Assembly (NCBI GenBank): GCA_934045075.1
Contig: OW203722.1
Location: 18,948,986-19,012,985, forward strand
DNA: 64,000 bases
Direction: 5' to 3'
Origin: Yponomeuta sedellus
Lineage: Eukaryota; Arthropoda; Insecta; Lepidoptera; Yponomeutidae
In this document: in pieces, positions 15,868 to 61,665 of the stretch
Position numbering within the stretch: the first letter of the stretch is position 1
How the letters are laid out: each line of letters begins with the position of its first letter
Made by a program: the position numbers and the translations under genes
The notes under the pieces: generated by a model
What the model was told of the DNA's origin: nothing
The model's input: only the letters and a program-made list of their open reading frames with translations
Databases searched by the model: none

Positions 15868-16800
15868 CATCATCATAATCAGTCGGTGTCAGTCCACCCC
15901 TCTCCCAATACTGTCGGTGTTAGTCCACCGGATGCCTCTCCCAATACTGTCGGTGTCAGTCCACCGGATGCCTCTCCCAATACTGTCGGTGTTAGTCCAC
16001 CGGATGCCTCTCCCAATACTGTCTGTGTCAGTCCACCGGATGCCTCTCCCAATACTGTCGATGTCAGTCCACCGGATGCCTCTCCCAATACTGTCGGTGT
16101 CAGTCCACCGGATGCCTCTCCCAATACTGTCGGTGTCAGTCCACCGGATGCCTCTCCCAACACTGTCAGTGTCAGTCCACCGGATGCCTCCCCCAATACT
16201 GTCCCTGTCAGTCCACCGGATGCCTCTCCCAATACTATCGGTGTCAGTCCACCGGATGCCTCTCCCAATACTGTCGGTGTCAACCCACCGGATGCCTCTC
16301 CCAATACTGTCGGTGTCAGTCCACCGGATGCCTTTCCCAATACTGTCGGTGTCAGTCCACCGGATGCCTCTCCCAATACTGTCGGTGTCAGTCCACCGGA
16401 TGCCTCTCCCAATACTGTCGGTGTCAGTCCACCGGATGCCTCTCCCAATACTGTCGGTGTCAGTCCACCGGATGCCTCTCTCAATACTGTCAGTGTCAGT
16501 CCACCGAATGCCTCCCCCAATACTGTCGCTGTCAGTCCACCGGATGCCTCTCCCAATACTGTCGGTGTCAGTCCACCGGATGCCTCTCCCAATACTGTCG
16601 GTGTCAGTCCACCGGATGCCTCTCCCAATACTGTCGGTGTCAGTCCACCGGATGCCTCTCCCAATACTGTCGGTGTCAGTCCACTGGATGCCTCTCCCAA
16701 TACTGTCGGTGTCAGTCCATCGGATGCCTCTCCCAATACTAGCCATTGAGTCCGATCTTATGCACTTCTCTTCCAGTCACTGCCCACGGGTTCGTCCTAG
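15868..16800 (-). mobile_element. RTE-like 3' remnant hosting the minisatellite
   Basis: The flanks 'ACCATCATCATAATCAGTCG' on the left and 'GAGTCCGATCTTATGCACTT', 'CTCTTCCAGTCACTG' on the right match, in order, the uninterrupted repeat at 21712-21800 ('ATCATCATAATCAGCCGGTA' to 'GAGCCCGATCTTCGGC'). That is the antisense of RTE-like retrotransposon 3' ends. The tandem array sits between these flanks. Confidence 0.75.
15893..16740. repeat. 36-bp minisatellite, about 23 units
   Basis: The unit is 'CCACCGGATGCCTCTCCC' plus 'AATACTGTCGGTGTCAGT' (36 bp). The CCACCG-type start recurs every 36 bases from 15925 to 16717, preceded by one deviant first unit. Because 36 is divisible by three and no phase contains a stop, long open frames occur on both strands (15886-16749 and 15917-16873 on +, 15879-16736 and 15889-16746 on -). 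These are artefacts. Variant units recur nine units apart (16177 and 16501), indicating a block duplication. Confidence 0.95.
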
Positions 16801-21049: not shown

Positions 21050-21292
21050 TCATTCCGATGTAAAATCTAACTGCAAAGTGGGTACTCGGGGCTGCAAGTG
21101 ATGCAAATTACTTCAGCCAGATGTTGCTGCCTGTACGTAATACAGAGTATTGTAAAGAGGTTCGAAATTTCACCGATGCCGGTGAGTCGCCCATTAGCTC
21201 AGTTGGGAGAGCGCTGGCACGGTTAGCCAGAGTTCGCAGGTTCGAGTCCCGGCATGGGTGGAATTTTTAGCCTCTAAACAGGTTTGTATAAT
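21050..21292 (+). mobile_element. SINE-B copy
   Basis: 'CATTCCGATGTAAAATCTAA', 'CTCGGGGCTGCAAGTGATGC', 'GCCAGATGTTGCTGCCTGTA', 'TTAGCTCAGTTGGGAGAGCG', 'GCAGGTTCGAGTCCCGGC', 'AGCCTCTAAACAGGTTTG'. It shares 'GGGAGAGCGCTGGCACGGTT' with the 6340 copy, so these two form a subfamily. Confidence 0.88.
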
Positions 21293-23687: not shown

Positions 23688-24010
23688 GTGGCTCGTTAGT
23701 CTAGTGGTACCACGTCTGACATCCATGTCGGATATCGTAGGTTCAGTCCTAGTGGAGGCCGCTGTATGTTTGTATAAATGAATGAATAACCATTTATTGC
23801 CAACAAAGAATATCATACACTTATAAACTTAGATACTAAATTACTTTGAATAAATAAATTAATAATAAATAATTAAATTACTAAATGCCCTCCGCCTGGG
23901 TGTATTTCTATGTTTGTGATAACCTTGCTTGGTTACGATGGCAGGGGGTAACCTAGTTTAGGACCAGGAAGCCGTTTGCGCCATCTCACGGTGGTACCGT
24001 AGTAGGTCAT
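23688..24010 (+). mobile_element. SINE-F (tRNA-like), interrupted
   Basis: tRNA-like head 'GCTCGTTAGTCTAGTGGTAC' (A box) and 'GTAGGTTCAGTCCTAG' (B box), then 'GGCCGCTGTATGTTTGTATA'. An A/T-rich LINE-tail-like patch (23776-23884) intervenes before the matching tail 'TTCTATGTTTGTGAT' to 'ACCTAGTTTAGGACCAGGAA'. The relative at 51938-52112 has the tail without the interruption. Confidence 0.6.
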
Positions 24011-24116
24011 AGGACTCGGATGGCAATGACTGAGCTAAGCCATGATATCTGGCTCAGTTACCCACTAATTGTCATACTACCTGAGGGTATAAAAGGTTTC
24101 GCAATCTATTGTTACC

Positions 24117-25445
24117 AACCAGGATCGCATAACGAACACGGCGCTCCGGCACCTCCCGCAACGCTCAATTGCGGTCGTGACGCGCCTGTTCAATGGCATC
24201 CTGCGCACCGGTCACTTTCCACAAACGTGGAAAACTGGCCTGGTCATCCTCTTGCCCAAGCCGGGCAAGAATCCACAGAAGCCCGAAAGCTACCGGCCCA
24301 TCACGCTGCTGAGTACCCTCTCGAAGGTGTTCGAAAAGCTCCTGCTGCATCACCTGCTCCCGCACGTCCAGCCTCGTCCGGAACAGTTCGGGTTCCGGCC
24401 TGAGCACTCGACGACGCTTCAGCTCACCAGGGTACTGCACGACATGACGGTGCGCCTCAACAAAAAGGAGTGCACCGTTGCAGTACTCCTGGATATGGAG
24501 AAGGCGTTTGACAGGGTATGGCATGAGGGGTTGCTGTACAAACTGTCGACGTCCGCTGCCCCTCGACGTCTCACCGCGGTCGTGGCCTCGTTCCTGAGGG
24601 ATCGCCGCTTCAGAGTGGCGGTGGAGGACGCCGTGTCCGAGGAGCGCCACATCCTTGCCGGCGTCCCCCAGGGAAGCTGCCTGTCCCCAGCCTGTTACGC
24701 CCGATACACCGACGACATACCAGTCCCGGAGGGCGTCCAATTGGCGCTATACGCCGACGACGCCGCCTACCTGGCGTCGTCCATGTCACCTAAGCACGCT
24801 GCAACCAAGATGCAGCGTGCCCTCGACGCTCTCCCCGACTGGCTGAAGAAGTGGCGTTTGTCGGTCAATGTCGGGAAGACACAGGCCATGCTGACAGGCC
24901 GCTGCCACCCGCCGCCGCCGCTCCGGCTGCACGGGCGGGTCATCGAGTGGCAGAACCAAGTGAAATACCTGGGGGTCACCATCGACCGTGGACTAACGAT
25001 GGCTGCGCACGCCAGCGCAGTCGTCAACCAGGTGAAGGTGGCGCGCGCGAAGCTGCGTCCAATCTTCACCTCCCGCCTCCCTCTGCGAGCGAAGCTCGGG
25101 GTCTACAAGACCTATGTCAGGCCCCGCCTCACGTACGCTGCGCCGGCATGGTTCGCGCTTGTCTCGGAGTCGAATAAGAAGCGGCTCCGAGCCCAGGAGA
25201 ACCTCTCCCTACGCACCATCGTCGGCGCACCTCGCTACGTGAGGAATGCGACGATCGCGAGGGACCTCAAGTGGGAGGAGCTGGACGCTTTCGTGGCGCG
25301 GCTGGCGACCGATATGTTCGCGCGTGCGGACCGGTCGCAGCTGCAGCACCTGCGCGGGCTGGCGCCACTGCACGCGCGACCGCCCGACAGCCGCGCCAAG
25401 CGCGTCCCCCGAAGCCTGGTCGAGTCCACGGCCAACTCGGTCTAA
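24117..25445 (+). pseudogene. Jockey-clade LINE reverse transcriptase, 5'-truncated
   Basis: Reverse transcriptase that would copy the element's RNA onto nicked target DNA. The frame is open from about 24093 to a TAA at 25443. Homology starts near 24117 (DRITNTALRHLPQRS) and has no Met there, so this is a truncated insertion. Fingers/palm motifs in order: SYRPITLLS, PEQFGFRPEHST, LLDMEKAFDRVW (first catalytic Asp), AGVPQGSCLSP, LYADDAAYL (YADD at 24750-24761), then the thumb motif YLGVTIDRGLTM and a C-terminal region to LVESTANSV. The clade is judged from GVPQGSCLSP and the thumb motif. ORF1 and the endonuclease are absent. The frame is GC-rich, unlike its surroundings, and has no stops, so the insertion is young. 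It lies 302 bp before the RAG1-like gene on the same strand. Confidence 0.9.
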
Positions 25446-25746
25446 AGAAGACCACCTGCGACCCCTAGTGAAGACCACCGCCTGGAAGGCCACCCATTGA
25501 CCTGTCCGTAGCCGCGGACAGCGGTAGATCCCTCGGGAAGAGGGCCACGCCCTGACCCCGACCCTCCACTTTCCCCAGGGGGAAGTGTGAGAAGACCGCG
25601 AGATGATGTTCCCAACATTCCTTTTTCGGCATCCGAAGTGAACACAAGTAATTAGTCATCAACCTGTTATCACCAAGTGCTTTAATTAGCCCAAGACGCG
25701 ACGCGTGTGTTTAAGTTCCAACTAGTCTGTGACCTGCTATTTTACA
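25446..25746 (+). other. Jockey 3' UTR and 5' flank of the RAG1-like gene
   Basis: GC-rich sequence continues to about 25600 ('CTTTCCCCAGGGGGAAGTG' is a hairpin) and is probably the LINE 3' UTR. Composition changes near 25620-25640. The next ~100 bases should hold the RAG1-like gene's promoter or 5' UTR. I searched here for a Transib-like CAC(A/T)(A/G)TG terminus and found none convincing. Confidence 0.5.
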
Positions 25747-28057
25747 ATGGAATTTGAAGTCACAGGTATGTATTATTAATTTACTTTACTATTTTGCCTT
25801 TTCCTTCTACATTTTTTTTTTAAATAGAGTGCTACGCCAACGTGGCATTTTTTATGTATTTATGTCTGTATATTTTTTACGTTGAAGCTTTTACTTATGT
25901 TTGTACCTACTTGTACCATTCAATTTGGTATAGAAATATGGGTTACAATGTCTACTACTAGGCCTCTCCAAATTTAGCTGCGTCATGCTGCGTCTGTAAG
26001 GTGCAGCCAGGTGCTACGCCGCGCGCCTGAACGCGTAGCAGGCGCGTAGCACTTGCTACGAAACATGTATCTATTTTGATCCGCTTTTAACGTATTTTTA
26101 TTTTGTTTTAGGTACTAGTATTAAGTGTTCTTTCAAAAGAATGCTTGTACTAGATACTTGGCTGTCTATTAAAGACAGCAAATCTGAACTGGAGCGTTGG
26201 CATCGAGTTTTTCGAGACCTAATACAATTGCTGCCTGATGTTGAGAATTACATTGCTGATGACTTGGAAAAAAGAGTTACTAAAGTTTGTACAAGATTGG
26301 TAGCAATTTGGAAGCAAGTCACGCGCAACCATTCTCGCATGGTCTCTAAGTACGGAGACTGGCTGAACGAAATTGAAGTTTGCGTTCTGCCAACTTGTGC
26401 AACAGTAGGGAGCCACAACACCCAACGGCCAGCAGCAGAAGCTTCGACAAGCACCCAACAGCACCAGCACAGGAAGGACTTTGAGGAATGTAGCAAGAGA
26501 TCAAAACGCCGCAGGCTTGCAGAGTTAAGTAAAGTAGACAGTTCTGCGATAAATTCTTTGTTGGACGATTCTAGTCTATCTAACGCCGCTGCATCTTTAA
26601 ATTTCAGCACTGACGAAGTCTTGTCTCTTATAAATGAGACAAAACTGACTAAACATCAGTATCTTTTGGTGAAAGACTTCGTTAATGCAAAATCACCTAA
26701 TGCATTACCATCTTATCAAAAAGTGTTAGAAGCTAAGAAGCGGTGCTATCCATCGCAAGAGTTTATCACGGAATCATCTGCTGAAGTAGAATTACAATCA
26801 TTGTTAGATCATACTGCTTGCCGGATACTAGAATCCCAAAAACCCGTTTTGAATAATATTGACCCTAATAAAGAATTTGTTTTGATTGGAAAATGGGGTT
26901 TCGATGGGAGTACGGGGCACAGCGAATATAAACAGATTTTTGGAGATTCTGGTATCGATGATGATGGCAGTATGTTTGTTACTTCATATTGTCCTCTTCA
27001 ATTGGTTTGTAAGTCCAATACCTCCGACCCAGATCAAATAGTTTGGAAAAATCCGCGCCCTTCTTCCACCAGGTATTGTAGGCCTATTCGATTCCAATTT
27101 GCCAAAGAATCCAAATACCTTTCTGTGCAAGAAGAAGCTTATTTCAAGACTAAAATTGATAGTTTACAACCGACTTCTTTCACTCACGGTGAATATGAAA
27201 TAAAAGTGCAGCATTCTTTACAATTAACCATGGTTGATGGTAAAGTGTGCAGTGCTCTGAGCGATACATCTTGTAGTAGATGTTATATTTGTGGTTCAAC
27301 TCCAAAAGAGATGAATGACATTGATAAATCGCTGAGCAAAACTGCAGATAGTGGTACCTATCAATTTGGACTATCTCCTCTTCACTCGTATATCCGATTC
27401 TTCGAATATTTAATTCACGTTTCTTATAGATTAGACATAAAGAAATGGCAGGTACGTTCTTCAGACGAAAAAGCTCTTCTTGCACAAAAAAAACAACATG
27501 TGCAGCAACAGTTTAGGCAGAAACTTGGTCTAATAGTCGACAAACCGCGAAGTGGAGGAAGTGGCACATCTAACGACGGAAACACTGCCAGAAAGTTTTT
27601 TTCTAACTCAGCGGTTTCAGCGGAAATTACTGGATTAGATAAAATCCTTATTGACAGATGTCATAATCTGCTGCAGTGTCTTTCGTCGGGATACAAAATT
27701 AATAACGCCACTTTTAAAGAGTATTCTCTAGAAACAGCACGTAAACTTGTTGCTACCTATCCATGGTACAACTTGCCATCGTCTGTACATAAGGTCCTCA
27801 TTCATGGGTCGGAAGTAATTGAACACGCATTATTGTCAATAGGTGAGCTTTCGGAAGAGGCCGCCGAATCTTGCAATAAATTAATCAAACTCTTCAGGCG
27901 TGACAACACGAGGAAAATGTCTCGGGTTGTCACAAACACCGACTTGATACATAGACTTCTCCTTAATTCGGATCCTTATATTTCTAGTTTAAGAAGGTTA
28001 CCACAGAAGAAGAAGTCTATTCTATCAAAAGAAGTATTAAATTTGTTGTCGGTTTAG
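25747..28057 (+). CDS. RAG1/Transib-superfamily recombinase, two coding exons
   Basis: Predicted DDE recombinase that would cut and paste DNA between terminal repeats; a 654-residue nuclear protein. Exon 1 is 25747-25765 (MEFEVT plus the first base of a Gly codon) and exon 2 is 26112-28057, joined in frame. Catalytic residues in spliced numbering: D271 (WGFDGSTGHSEYKQ, codon at 26903), D382 (MVDGKV, 27236) and E592 (SEEAAESCNK, 27866). D-D spacing is 111, against 108 in RAG1 (D600/D708). Zinc-site residues: C397 and C400 (CYIC, right after the second Asp, as in RAG1) and H566/H571 (VHKVLIH). Other blocks: YQKVLEAKKRCYP (208-220), VWKNPRPSS, KWQVR, LIVDKPRSGG, a basic KRSKRRR near 135-141 (likely nuclear signal) and a Ser/Thr/Gln-rich linker before it. 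There are no stops or frameshifts. The family call is firm. Whether it is an active transposon gene or domesticated is open. Confidence 0.92.
25766..26111 (+). other. Phase-1 intron of the RAG1-like gene
   Basis: Donor CAG|GTATGT at 25766 and acceptor 'TTTTATTTTGTTTTAG' ending at 26111. The 29 bases from 26112 to the internal ATG at 26141 plus one exon-1 base make ten whole codons without a stop, so splicing adds 16 residues (MEFEVTGTSIKCSFKR). The intron contains an inverted 'GTGCTACGCC'/'GGCGCGTAGCAC' pair (26011-26052) and another 'GTGCTACGCC' at 25832. Confidence 0.75.
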
Positions 28058-28340
28058 GAAAAAATGTAAAAAATAAGATAGGTATTTATGTTATTTTTTA
28101 CATAACTCCTATTATGTAAATATAATATTTTTTGTCCAATTGTGTGTTTGTACTTAGATGTTAGTTAAGTATTTACTTTATTTGTAATATAAAATGTAAA
28201 TAGTAAGGTTTAATAGTTATTAAGTTGCAAACCTTCTTTTAAGTGTAATAAAAATGCATAATTTTGTAAATAAAATAAGCTTTTTAAGATTATTTTGTTT
28301 TTTTTTATTGTGTTATGGCTTAAAGTATTACAAAACACCA
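28058..28340 (+). terminator. 3' UTR and poly(A) signals of the RAG1-like gene
   Basis: Very AT-rich. AATAAA at 28247-28252 and again at 28269-28274, followed by a T-rich tract with GTG ('TTTTTTATTGTGTTATGG'). No Transib-type terminal repeat matching the 5' flank was seen here. Confidence 0.65.
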
Positions 28341-28399
28341 TAATAATAATAATCAGCTATGACAACGACAGTCATTATTATCGCGAAACCCTATGACCG

Positions 28400-28612
28400 C
28401 TACTCTTAGGGCGTGGAACCAGTGATCTGTCCTGTAATGGCAGTCATTAAACCATGTCAGATAGGCGGTTTGATAACTTCTGGCAGTCTAACACTGTCTT
28501 ACAATCCTCCACTAACCCAGACTTCAACCTGAAGTGGAGTACGGCTTAACCTTTCTGCGACGCAGGAAGAGATCCGTGCCCCAGCAGTGGGGACATACAA
28601 AGGGTTGATACC
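28400..28612 (+). mobile_element. SINE-A, 3' two thirds
   Basis: 'GGCAGTCATTAAACCATGTC', 'GGCGGTTTGATAACTTCTGG', 'AATCCTCCACTAACCCAGAC', 'GCAGTGGGGACATACAAAGG'. The 5S-like head is missing. Confidence 0.75.
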
Positions 28613-28974
28613 AAATAAATTATGTTACTTTAATATCTTATGAACAAACAATAATATTTAGGGATTCATGAGGATCGCGCATCGTGACCTTGGTAAATAG
28701 TTAAGCAAATATGTAACGTACTTACTTAAACAGCATATTGAAAACGAGCGACTTCATCCTACAACAATTGATTTGTAGTTAGGCTGTCACCACTCGACGT
28801 CATTTTGTTCTAAATTGGGCTACAATTAAATTTAATATGTCAGAAACAACGACTAACGACGGAATAACGACTTAGTAAACGTTTTAACTATAATAAAATA
28901 GCATGAAACTTATTTAGACGTTGGAGCCCTTCGTGAATTTAAGGGATATTTGTAGGCAATTATATTATTAGGGC

Positions 28975-34377: not shown

Positions 34378-34700
34378 TACTATTTTTATTTTTAATGCAC
34401 TAACCCGTGCTAAGGACAATTTTTAAAAAACCTATTTAGAGACTAAAAATTCCACCCATGCCGGGATTTGAACCCGCGACCTCTGGCTATCCGTGCCAGC
34501 GCTCTTTCCAACTGAGCTAATGGGCGACTCACCGGCATCAGTGAAATTTCGAACCTCTTACACTATTCTCTGTATTACGTACAGGCAGCGACATCTGGCT
34601 TAAGTAAATTGCATCACTTACAGCCCCGACTACAGAGAGACTACTCGCGACTACTCTAATACAGAGAATAGTGTAAAGAGGTTCGAAACGTGTAAAGAGA
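34378..34700 (-). mobile_element. SINE-B copy plus inverted head scrap
   Basis: Minus-strand near full-length copy: 'TTTAATGCACTAACCCGTGC', 'CCGGGATTTGAACCCGCGAC', 'CCAACTGAGCTAATGGGCGA', 'CACTATTCTCTGTATTACGT', 'GCATCACTTACAGCCCCGAC'. It is followed at 34655-34690 by a plus-strand head scrap ('AATACAGAGAATAGTGTAAA'), again a head-to-head layout. Confidence 0.88.
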
Positions 34701-34959: not shown

Positions 34960-35150
34960 ACATACATTTCTTCTGGCGCCACACTATGATACCCTGTGTC
35001 GTGGGAACCAAAAGCAACGACATCACAAGCATATAAGCATCCAAGACCTGGAGTTTTTTTTGTCCCCAGCCGGGGTTCGAACCCGGGACCTCTTGCATGG
35101 TAGGCAGATGCGCTACCGCTACGCCACACAGAGGCCGTCACGCGCGTCAT
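34960..35150 (-). mobile_element. SINE-E (tRNA-like)
   Basis: On the plus strand: 'CACACTATGATACCCTGTGT', 'CGTGGGAACC', 'AGCCGGGGTTCGAACCCGGG' (B-box complement), 'GGTAGGCAGATGCGCTACCG', 'CTACGCCACACAGAGGCCGT'. A full second copy is at 41285-41462. The head could fold as a tRNA but the family is clearly repetitive. Confidence 0.8.
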
Positions 35151-41093: not shown

Positions 41094-41600
41094 ACCCACT
41101 GACCGCCGCGGTCCTTGCCATTCGCTTCCACGGGTGCTCTAACGACTTGGTCACATAGTTGGACCATCGGGCTGTCGGTCTACCCACTGACCGCCGCGGT
41201 CCTCGCCATTCGCTTCCACGGGTGCTCTAACAACTTAACATAACATATTATGTACACTAACATAACATTTTACACACTGGTACATACACATTGCTTCTGG
41301 CCCCACACTAGGATACCCTGTGTCGTGGGAACCAGAAACAACGACATCACAAACATGTAAACATTCAAGACCTGGACTTTATTTTTATTTCCAGCCGGGA
41401 TTCGAACTCGGGACCTCTTGCATCGTAGGCAGACGCGCTACCGCTACGCCACAGAGGTCGTCACATAGTTCGACCATCGGGCTGTCATTCTACCCACTGA
41501 TCGCTGCGGTCCTCGCCATTCGCTTCCACGGATGCTCTAACGACTTCGTTACATCGTTCGACCATCGGGCTGTCGGTCTAAGCACTGACCGCCCGATTCT
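41094..41600. repeat. ~89-bp tandem repeat split by a SINE
   Basis: The unit 'TACCCACTGACCGCCGCGGT', 'CGCCATTCGCTTCCACGGGT', 'GCTCTAACGACTT', 'GACCATCGGGCTGTCGGTC' occurs at about 41094, 41183, 41490 and 41578. The second and third units are separated by the SINE-E at 41285-41462, so the array predates the SINE. Confidence 0.75.
41285..41462 (-). mobile_element. SINE-E (tRNA-like), inside the tandem array
   Basis: 'CATTGCTTCTGGCCCCACAC', 'TAGGATACCCTGTGTCGTGG', 'GCCGGGATTCGAACTCGGGA', 'GGCAGACGCGCTACCGCTAC', 'GCCACAGAGGTCGTCAC'. Confidence 0.82.
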
Positions 41601-54059: not shown

Positions 54060-54752
54060 TATTCAACCTTGGATGGTAACCCTACTCTACGAAGGAGGAG
54101 GAACGATTTTCCGTCTAACTGTACTTAGAACCAAAATGTGCTGGTATTTCAGCCTTCCCGTTTTCAAACTTTGGGAATGGCAACCCTTCTATACGAAGCA
54201 GGCACAATTTTTCAGCTAATTGTACTTGACTTATAATCAAAATGTGCTGCTATTTCAGCCTTCCTGTTTTAAAAATTTGGTAATGGCAACTCTACTATAC
54301 GAAGCAAACACAATTTTCTAGCTAATTGTACTTGACTTATAATCAAAATGTGCTGGTATTTCAGCCTTCCTGTTTTCAAAACTTGGTAATGGCAACTGTA
54401 CTATACGACCCAAGCACAATTTTCTAGATAACTGTTTTTGAATTATATCCAAAATGTGGTGGTATTACAACGTTCCTGGTTTTCAAACTTTGGGGATGGC
54501 AACCCTACTATGAGAAGCAGGTCGCATAATTTTCCGGTTAACTGTACTAAAAACCACAAAGTGCTGGTATTACGGCCTCCTGATATCAAAATTAGGGGCT
54601 GCCAGTGCCGATACAATTTTTTGGCTGTACTTGATCCAAAACCAAAAAGTGCTGGTATTTCAAACTTTCTGTTTTTTTTTTATAGGGGATGGCAAATTGG
54701 CAACCCTACTTTCCGAGGCAGGCACAATTTTCCGGCTAACTGTACTTGTCGG
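54060..54752. repeat. ~105-bp tandem array, about 7 units
   Basis: Unit: 'GGCAACCCTACTATACGAAG', 'CAGGCACAATTTTCCGGCTA', 'ACTGTACTTGACTTATAATC', 'AAAATGTGCTGGTATTTCAG', 'CCTTCCTGTTTTCAAAC'. Starts at about 54074, 54174, 54281, 54386, 54493, 54595 (shortened) and 54685. Identity between units is moderate, so the array is old or short-lived amplification with drift. Confidence 0.85.
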
Positions 54753-61379: not shown

Positions 61380-61665
61380 CAAATAAGACTACAGCTATAT
61401 AAGGTGTCAGGATGGTATAGGTGCTGGGCAAGACTACTCCTGTACGTAATACAGAGAATATTGTAAAGAGGTTCGAAATTTCACTGATGCCGGTGATTCG
61501 TCCATTAGCTCAGTTGGAAAGAGCGCTGGCACGGATAGCCAGAGGTCGCGGGTTCGAATCCCGGCATGGGTGGAATTTTTCCGAGGCGTCCGAGTGGTCC
61601 TTCACACATCTAGTGTGAGTAAAGGTGCCACTAGAAGCTGTATCATCTCATTACGTAGATGCTAA
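61380..61665 (+). mobile_element. SINE-C body (R7) interrupted by SINE-B
   Basis: 'GGTGTCAGGATGGTATAGGT', 'GCTGGGCAAG' then the SINE-B fragment, then 'CCGAGTGGTCCTTCACACAT', 'CTAGTGTGAGTAAAGGTGCC', 'ATCTCATTACGTAGATG'. Compared with 58358-58550, about 39 bases were replaced by the SINE-B piece. Confidence 0.7.
61434..61578 (+). mobile_element. SINE-B copy, truncated both ends
   Basis: 'CTCCTGTACGTAATACAGAG', 'GATGCCGGTGATTCGTCCAT', 'TTAGCTCAGTTGGAAAGAGC', 'GCTGGCACGGATAGCCAG' (anticodon stem and loop), 'CGCGGGTTCGAATCCCGGCA', 'TGGGTGGAATTTTT'. The tRNA part is the cleanest in the window: 7-bp acceptor (one mismatch, one G-U), D arm, 5-bp anticodon stem with loop ACGGATA, short variable loop and a T arm. 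Confidence 0.88.

Follow-up and report, generated by a model that had tools for sequence, protein, structure and literature searches.

Does an intact RAG1-like gene in an insect genome mark a recombinase maintained by its host, or a transposon too young to have decayed? The question is raised by positions 25747-28057 of a stretch of 64,000 nucleotides (hereafter the window) from the lepidopteran Yponomeuta sedellus (assembly GCA_934045075.1, contig OW203722.1, positions 18,948,986 to 19,012,985 of the forward strand), where an earlier, sequence-only reading had described a RAG1/Transib-type recombinase gene. The window gene is very probably the transposase of one copy of a young, autonomous Transib, 2944 bp long when complete and encoding a RAG1-like DDE enzyme. 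Judged by its sequence, the element is a new member of the Transib family and kin of RAG1, and it is youth, and not domestication, that explains the open RAG1-like frame in this insect genome. The notable point is the combination of near-certain recent mobility of the family with asymmetric ends resembling recombination signal sequences (RSSs) and with junctions reminiscent of V(D)J-style resealing.

The family assignment starts from the protein. The window protein matches the HzTransib chain 6pqn with an expectation value (E) of 5.2e-117, and this homology excludes a chance origin of the frame. The expected agreement with family profiles held in part: the match to HzTransib stands, whereas the Pfam RAG1 model alone stays below its cut-off (23.3 vs 25 bits) and speaks against the assignment. 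D271, D382 and E592, the CxxC (CYIC, residues 397-400) and the HxxxxH (HKVLIH, residues 566-571, with H571 sitting 21 residues before E592) were all found where the earlier reading had placed them. Alignments with HzTransib, RAG1 and RAG1L bore out that the triad falls on catalytic columns, as did an alignment of 37 sequences, made up of the window protein plus 36 of 120 listed relatives, in which the triad, the CxxC and the two His residues are invariant or almost invariant. D382 aligns with the corresponding Asp of HzTransib, and D271 with a DG motif in RAG1L and RAG1 that is presumed to be D600, though these stretches score weakly alone. E592 aligns with RAG1 E962 when counted from H937.

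The genome searched comprises 657.5 Mb in 57 contigs. A protein search scored 68 of 957 candidates, and all 68 are full length, stop-free and listed as 100% identical; they are the best-scoring copies, so both intactness and identity are biased upward, which weighs against a young and uniformly intact family. Aligned copies set the borders of the complete element, which starts with CACGGTGGTACC, finishes with GGAACCAGTGTG and has 5-bp duplications on either side. A 20-base pattern from the 5′ end, allowing up to 2 mismatches, occurs 321 times in the genome and the reversed pattern 0 times; copy number is based on these 5′ ends only, of which the first 100 were listed, 59 lying among the 68 scored copies and 41 being additional. 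When 39 of these 41 were inspected, a 3′ end was found at about the full-length distance in 28 (14 of 19 and 14 of 20). Nine of the remaining 11 match the element at 99.9-100% over the first 1500 bases, the span read. The other two, L166 and L169, are internally deleted Transib derivatives with about 1.1 kb and 2.2 kb missing, and are possible seeds of non-autonomous elements. The lack of copies on contig C7, which has only 45,946 bases, was dropped as a meaningful absence.

An identical protein of 654 residues is encoded by 49 of the 50 copies that were read completely; only the window copy deviates (D342Y). Outside the junctions the 50 copies hold seven substitutions, none common to two copies; the window copy has two, and L009, L012, L024, L031 and L040 have one each. 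Internal insertions and deletions (indels) comprise a 10-bp intron deletion (L004) and single-base T-run differences in L001, L013, L021, L025 and L032, one of them common to L001 and L013. With a butterfly rate of 2.9e-9 mutations per site per generation, these substitutions correspond to an age of about 16,000 generations (95% range 6,600-33,800), a figure that best-match sampling biases low. The sequence-only reading had held that the frame might be under selection, a dead transposon being expected to collect stops. That argument is wrong or unnecessary, since non-coding parts are as unchanged as the frame and 3/7 substitutions lie in the coding sequence, itself 67% of the element length; youth alone explains the open frame because the non-coding parts are equally unchanged. 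The supposed contrast with decayed RTE-like neighbours also breaks down for the nearest of them, an adjoining fragment that has an uninterrupted 450-codon reverse transcriptase frame (24093-25445) within the Transib copy itself. The suggestion that the enzyme is potentially active was right as a guess and fits a burst of near-identical intact copies, from which we infer present activity.

A domesticated, single-copy host gene derived from a Transib and kept open by selection would account for the open frame, the full set of catalytic residues and the predicted upstream intron, and the same residues are kept in relatives. However, there are 321 5′ ends and 68 intact full-length copies, most of those read having intact ends and target site duplications (TSDs); the non-coding parts are equally unchanged, and the window copy departs by D342Y from 49 identical proteins. 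Domestication of the window gene is thus hardly credible, and copy number and ends rule it out for this Transib family. It is also very unlikely that the identical copies are an artefact of assembly or collapse, or old copies homogenised by gene conversion, in place of a recent burst. Every copy does come from a single assembly, and near-identity over 2.9 kb is extreme, but each of the read copies has individual flanks, and most have an individual 5-bp TSD. Gene conversion should leave variants shared in patches, whereas no substitution is shared and only one T-run length is (L001, L013). Whether the copies descend from a resident element or from a recent horizontal transfer into the lineage is, in our judgement, evenly balanced. 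The star-like identity, with no shared substitution, would suit a transfer, as would the want of a close vertical series among the 120 of 677 proteins listed, in which the closest relative, from Eumeta japonica, has 84% identity over 35% of the query and the next closest 78% over 88%. Against this, no donor was found among the 120 of 677 proteins listed, and the genome search scores best matches only.

By every feature that could be tested, the element classifies as a Transib and not as RAG1 or a RAGL transposon: it has a DDE transposase, CAC ends, a 5-bp GC-rich duplication, many copies and a single gene, with cut-and-paste catalysis presumed by analogy. The single gene follows from the room available, 263 bp before exon 1 and 370 bp after the stop; other frames of at least 130 codons that overlap the window copy either run antisense to exon 2 or belong entirely or for the most part to an inserted fragment. 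RAGL transposons have a convergent RAG2-like gene, for which the 2944-bp element has no room. With jawed-vertebrate RAG1 and the RAG1L of ProtoRAG (6b40) the window protein shares the DDE core and the CxxC/HxxxxH zinc site, at 14-20% identity in structural matches. Unlike them it is without the N-terminal Cys pairs of RING/ZDD and the C-terminal CTT* Cx2Cx3GHx4C: CxxC occurs only at 394/397 and 397/400, and the protein is Cys-free after residue 594. Compared with HzTransib (Helicoverpa zea; PDB 6pqn/6pqr/6pqx/6pqy/6pr5), it is longer by about 160 N-terminal residues unmatched in the HzTransib chains. The full structure model folds residues 1 to ~95 into a confident domain, which the listed structure matches do not cover and barely test.

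A GRP-type, NBD-like segment, weak by itself, is visible in the family profile and collinear with that of RAG1 and RAG1L. Relatives such as P0004, P0005 and P0008 have GRP followed by a basic segment of RSxRRR type, whereas the window element has lost the tripeptide (QHQHRKDF...). We do not present the segment as a discovery, because Transibs with an NBD-equivalent GRP are already described in PMC9435367. One relative, the predicted Eumeta japonica protein P0025, appears by eye to have an unrelated N-terminus fused to a Transib-like body near the exon-2 border, with some core segments missing; either decay of the copy or a chimeric gene model could account for this. Three stretches in viral_contigs matched a pattern used in looking for virus-borne relatives, and none of the three encodes one. 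No paper announcing this element turned up among those listed in a literature search covering mostly non-subscription journals.

The ends of the element bear on the origin of the 12/23 rule. The terminal inverted repeats (TIRs) start with CAC in the manner of an RSS heptamer (CACGGTGGTACC and CACACTGGTTCC), and the outer 12 bp of the two ends match imperfectly (CAC, TGGT, CC). Further in, GGTCATAGG begins at position 19 on the 5′ side vs 29 on the 3′ side, and AATGACTG at position 39 vs 51. The spacers from heptamer to second block are 11 bp and 21 bp, near those of 12/23 RSSs; one end carries its second block about a helical turn deeper than the other, which by sequence makes the element an asymmetric Transib of 12/23 type. 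A gapped alignment of the subterminal parts was equalled in 3/2000 shuffles and 0/200 internal windows. The common 9-mer alone recurred in 106/20,000 shuffles and 47/4,608 internal pairs, and the common 9-mer followed by the common 8-mer in 0/20,000 and 0/4,608.

Asymmetric ends are a known but uncommon Transib trait, here found in a very young family. Ends resembling 12/23 RSSs are described for a few Drosophila and Anopheles Transibs (PMC8355894), most Transibs are symmetric, HzTransib included (PMC8289069), and Subgroup II Transibs comprise symmetric and asymmetric members (PMC9435367). The nearest parallels are Transib5 of Drosophila melanogaster and Transib2/N1/N2/N3 of Anopheles gambiae, which according to PMC8355894 have a heptamer-like block and a second block at unequal distances, as here. 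Compared by description, the present family differs in its spacers (11/21 bp), its second block (GGTCATAGG) and its intact, near-identical read copies. HzTransib, the functional Transib of the cited literature, is called symmetric in PMC8289069, in contrast to the element described here, so that the origin of the 12/23 rule has been argued largely from sequence comparison. Many near-identical intact copies with asymmetric ends would offer a natural enzyme-substrate pair for measuring pairing preference without RAG2.

By analogy with HzTransib and RAG1, a pair of transposase subunits would engage both asymmetric ends, nick the DNA immediately outside CAC and form hairpins on the flanks, releasing blunt transposon ends for insertion into a 5-bp GC-rich target. 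The junctions, each with individual flanks, provide a natural record of cut-end repair. Both ends were read in 96 copies (68 + 14 + 14, the two sets of 14 being inspected visually and restricted to copies whose 5′ end is intact). An exact 5-bp duplication surrounds 83 of them, three have 4 bp (L010, L021, L034), one is ambiguous (L102/L121, either a 3-bp duplication or a loss of 2 bases) and nine are processed. In 57 clean cases the duplication has C at position 1 in 50 and G at position 5 in 46, for a target consensus of about C-A-N-T-G. Elsewhere in the genome, L003 and L059/L060 occupy an identical site (GAGCGCTG) within a repeat that by eye resembles a tRNA.

The nine processed junctions comprise both losses and additions. 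Bases are lost at the 3′ end of L001, the window copy (3), and of L031, L063/L064 and L089/L108 (about 7-8), and at the 5′ end of L004 (2) and L079/L080 (4). Additions are found at the 5′ end of L002 (T after ACCCA), L017 (CGT after ACACG) and L003 (CAGCGC after GCGCTG, with CACGG lost), and all three are reverse complements of the adjacent flank. We slightly favour reading these junctions as open-and-shut joints, in which hairpinned ends, once opened, were sealed again with no transposition taking place. Roughly a tenth of the copies would then have had an end cut, the flank hairpin opened off-centre and the end rejoined. Such joints, with their P-nucleotides, are a hallmark known above all from V(D)J recombination. 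Opening and resealing of hairpins would explain additions and losses alike.

The opposing view, that the altered junctions arose by error at insertion, with donor flank carried over or ends trimmed, or by ordinary deletion afterwards, falls only a little short of an even chance. Losses of 2-8 bases account for most of the altered junctions, microhomology is present in at least one of them (L063), and the three copies with 4-bp TSDs show that target staggering varies. Several points count against open-and-shut joints: they are read from 9/96 copies, two or three with palindromic additions; the one-base addition of L002 is weak and L003 could instead be one insertion plus one substitution; loss sizes were deduced from the other duplication, with no empty sites seen; and imprecise insertion, or damage at a later time, could have produced the deletions. 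However, the additions in L017 and L003 are what hairpin opening predicts, and imprecise insertion, which explains some losses, hardly explains junctions where CAC is gone, L003 and L079 being probably unable to insert in that state. Furthermore, indels crowd at the junctions, with 9 in 82 copies x 20 bases vs 2 in 50 x 2900 internal bases, a ratio of about 400 in which the 20 bases per copy and the 2 internal indels allowed are chosen settings (one internal indel outside T-runs was seen, in L004). Among the papers listed in a search covering mostly non-subscription journals and judged by title and start of abstract, none dealt with Transib junctions (open-and-shut, P nucleotides, footprint, excision).

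A more far-reaching proposal joins these observations: a currently mobile Transib whose transposase uses the 11/21 asymmetry to pair a long with a short end without RAG2, and whose copies preserve open-and-shut joints with P-nucleotides. Taken as a whole we regard it as rather unlikely, and the nick-hairpin chemistry within it is one that we infer. If true, a living transposon of insects would already possess both the coupling rule and the junction chemistry by which antigen receptors are assembled.

The window copy itself is one of the most heavily altered of the 50 completely read copies. The whole element spans 23987-28424, larger than the gene first described, and differs from L007 by two substitutions and a 1-base T-run difference (Table 1). 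It breaks off after element position 127 and resumes at 124, around an inserted fragment of 1493 bp bordered by a duplicated TGTT (4 bases; 24110-24113 and 25607-25610). The fragment is probably a long interspersed nuclear element (LINE), and its nesting inside the Transib copy makes it the younger insertion. An ungapped inverted-repeat search of 25300-28900 found no TIRs, because the true 5′ end lies beyond this fragment. With its 3′ tip trimmed and a fragment inserted, the window copy is probably immobile despite its open frame, and its transcription may be impaired because the insertion falls between the TATA-like box and exon 1.

The claim of an uninterrupted spliced frame of 654 codons plus stop was confirmed, with no internal stop; the stop-to-stop frame without splicing has 672 codons (26039-28057). 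An intron upstream of the transposase core is predicted. The stretch TSIKCSFKR, upstream of the first internal ATG, has counterparts in the relatives P0005, P0025 and P0028 and its region forms a confident strand in the alignment-based structure model, both of which speak for the splice; the strand is absent from a single-sequence model of residues 1-100 that is itself poor (predicted local distance difference test score, pLDDT, 60.6).

Table 1. Parts of the Transib copy in the window and of the fragment inserted into it.
Feature	Position	Strand	Remarks
Presumed left TSD, CATCT	23982-23986	+	Deduced from the 5-bp TSD rule of other copies
Transib 5′ end, element positions 1-127	23987-24113	+	Matches 5′ ends of other copies
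TIR block 1, CACGGTGGTACC, 5′ end	23987-23998	+	
Block 2, GGTCATAGG, 5′ end	24005-24013	+	
Block 3, AATGACTG, 5′ end	24025-24032	+	
TATA-like box	24088-24094	+	
Reverse transcriptase fragment inside Transib 5′ region	24114-25606	+	Missing from other copies; RVT_1 E 4.6e-37
Rest of Transib, element positions 124-2942	25607-28424	+	99.5-99.9% identity to 29 other loci, common borders
Transposase exon 1	25747-25765	+	MEFEVT and first base of codon 7; spliced frame; GTATGT donor in copies
Predicted intron, 346 bp, GT...AG	25766-26111	+	GT donor at 25766, AG acceptor at 26110-26111
Exon 2, RAG1/Transib core, stop included	26112-28057	+	D271, D382, C397/C400, H566/H571, E592; private D342Y
Transib 3′ end	28369-28424	+	Terminal TG of canonical copies missing
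Block 3, CAGTCATT, 3′ end	28369-28376	+	
Block 2, CCTATGACC, 3′ end	28390-28398	+	
Block 1 remnant, GGAACCAGTG, 3′ end	28415-28424	+	
Probable right TSD remnant, ATCT	28425-28428	+	Fits loss of TGC (3 bases) at the junction

Elsewhere in the window, a 36-bp minisatellite (15899-16740) has about 23 copies at 95% match and several open frames, one with a weak Cuticle_3 match that probably reflects composition, and a tandem array of a 106-bp unit has 3.7 copies (54123-54519). Six low-score Rfam tRNA matches (2385-2458, 21190-21258, 34455-34524, 35069-35127, 41392-41454 and 61502-61569) are probably tRNA-derived short interspersed nuclear elements.
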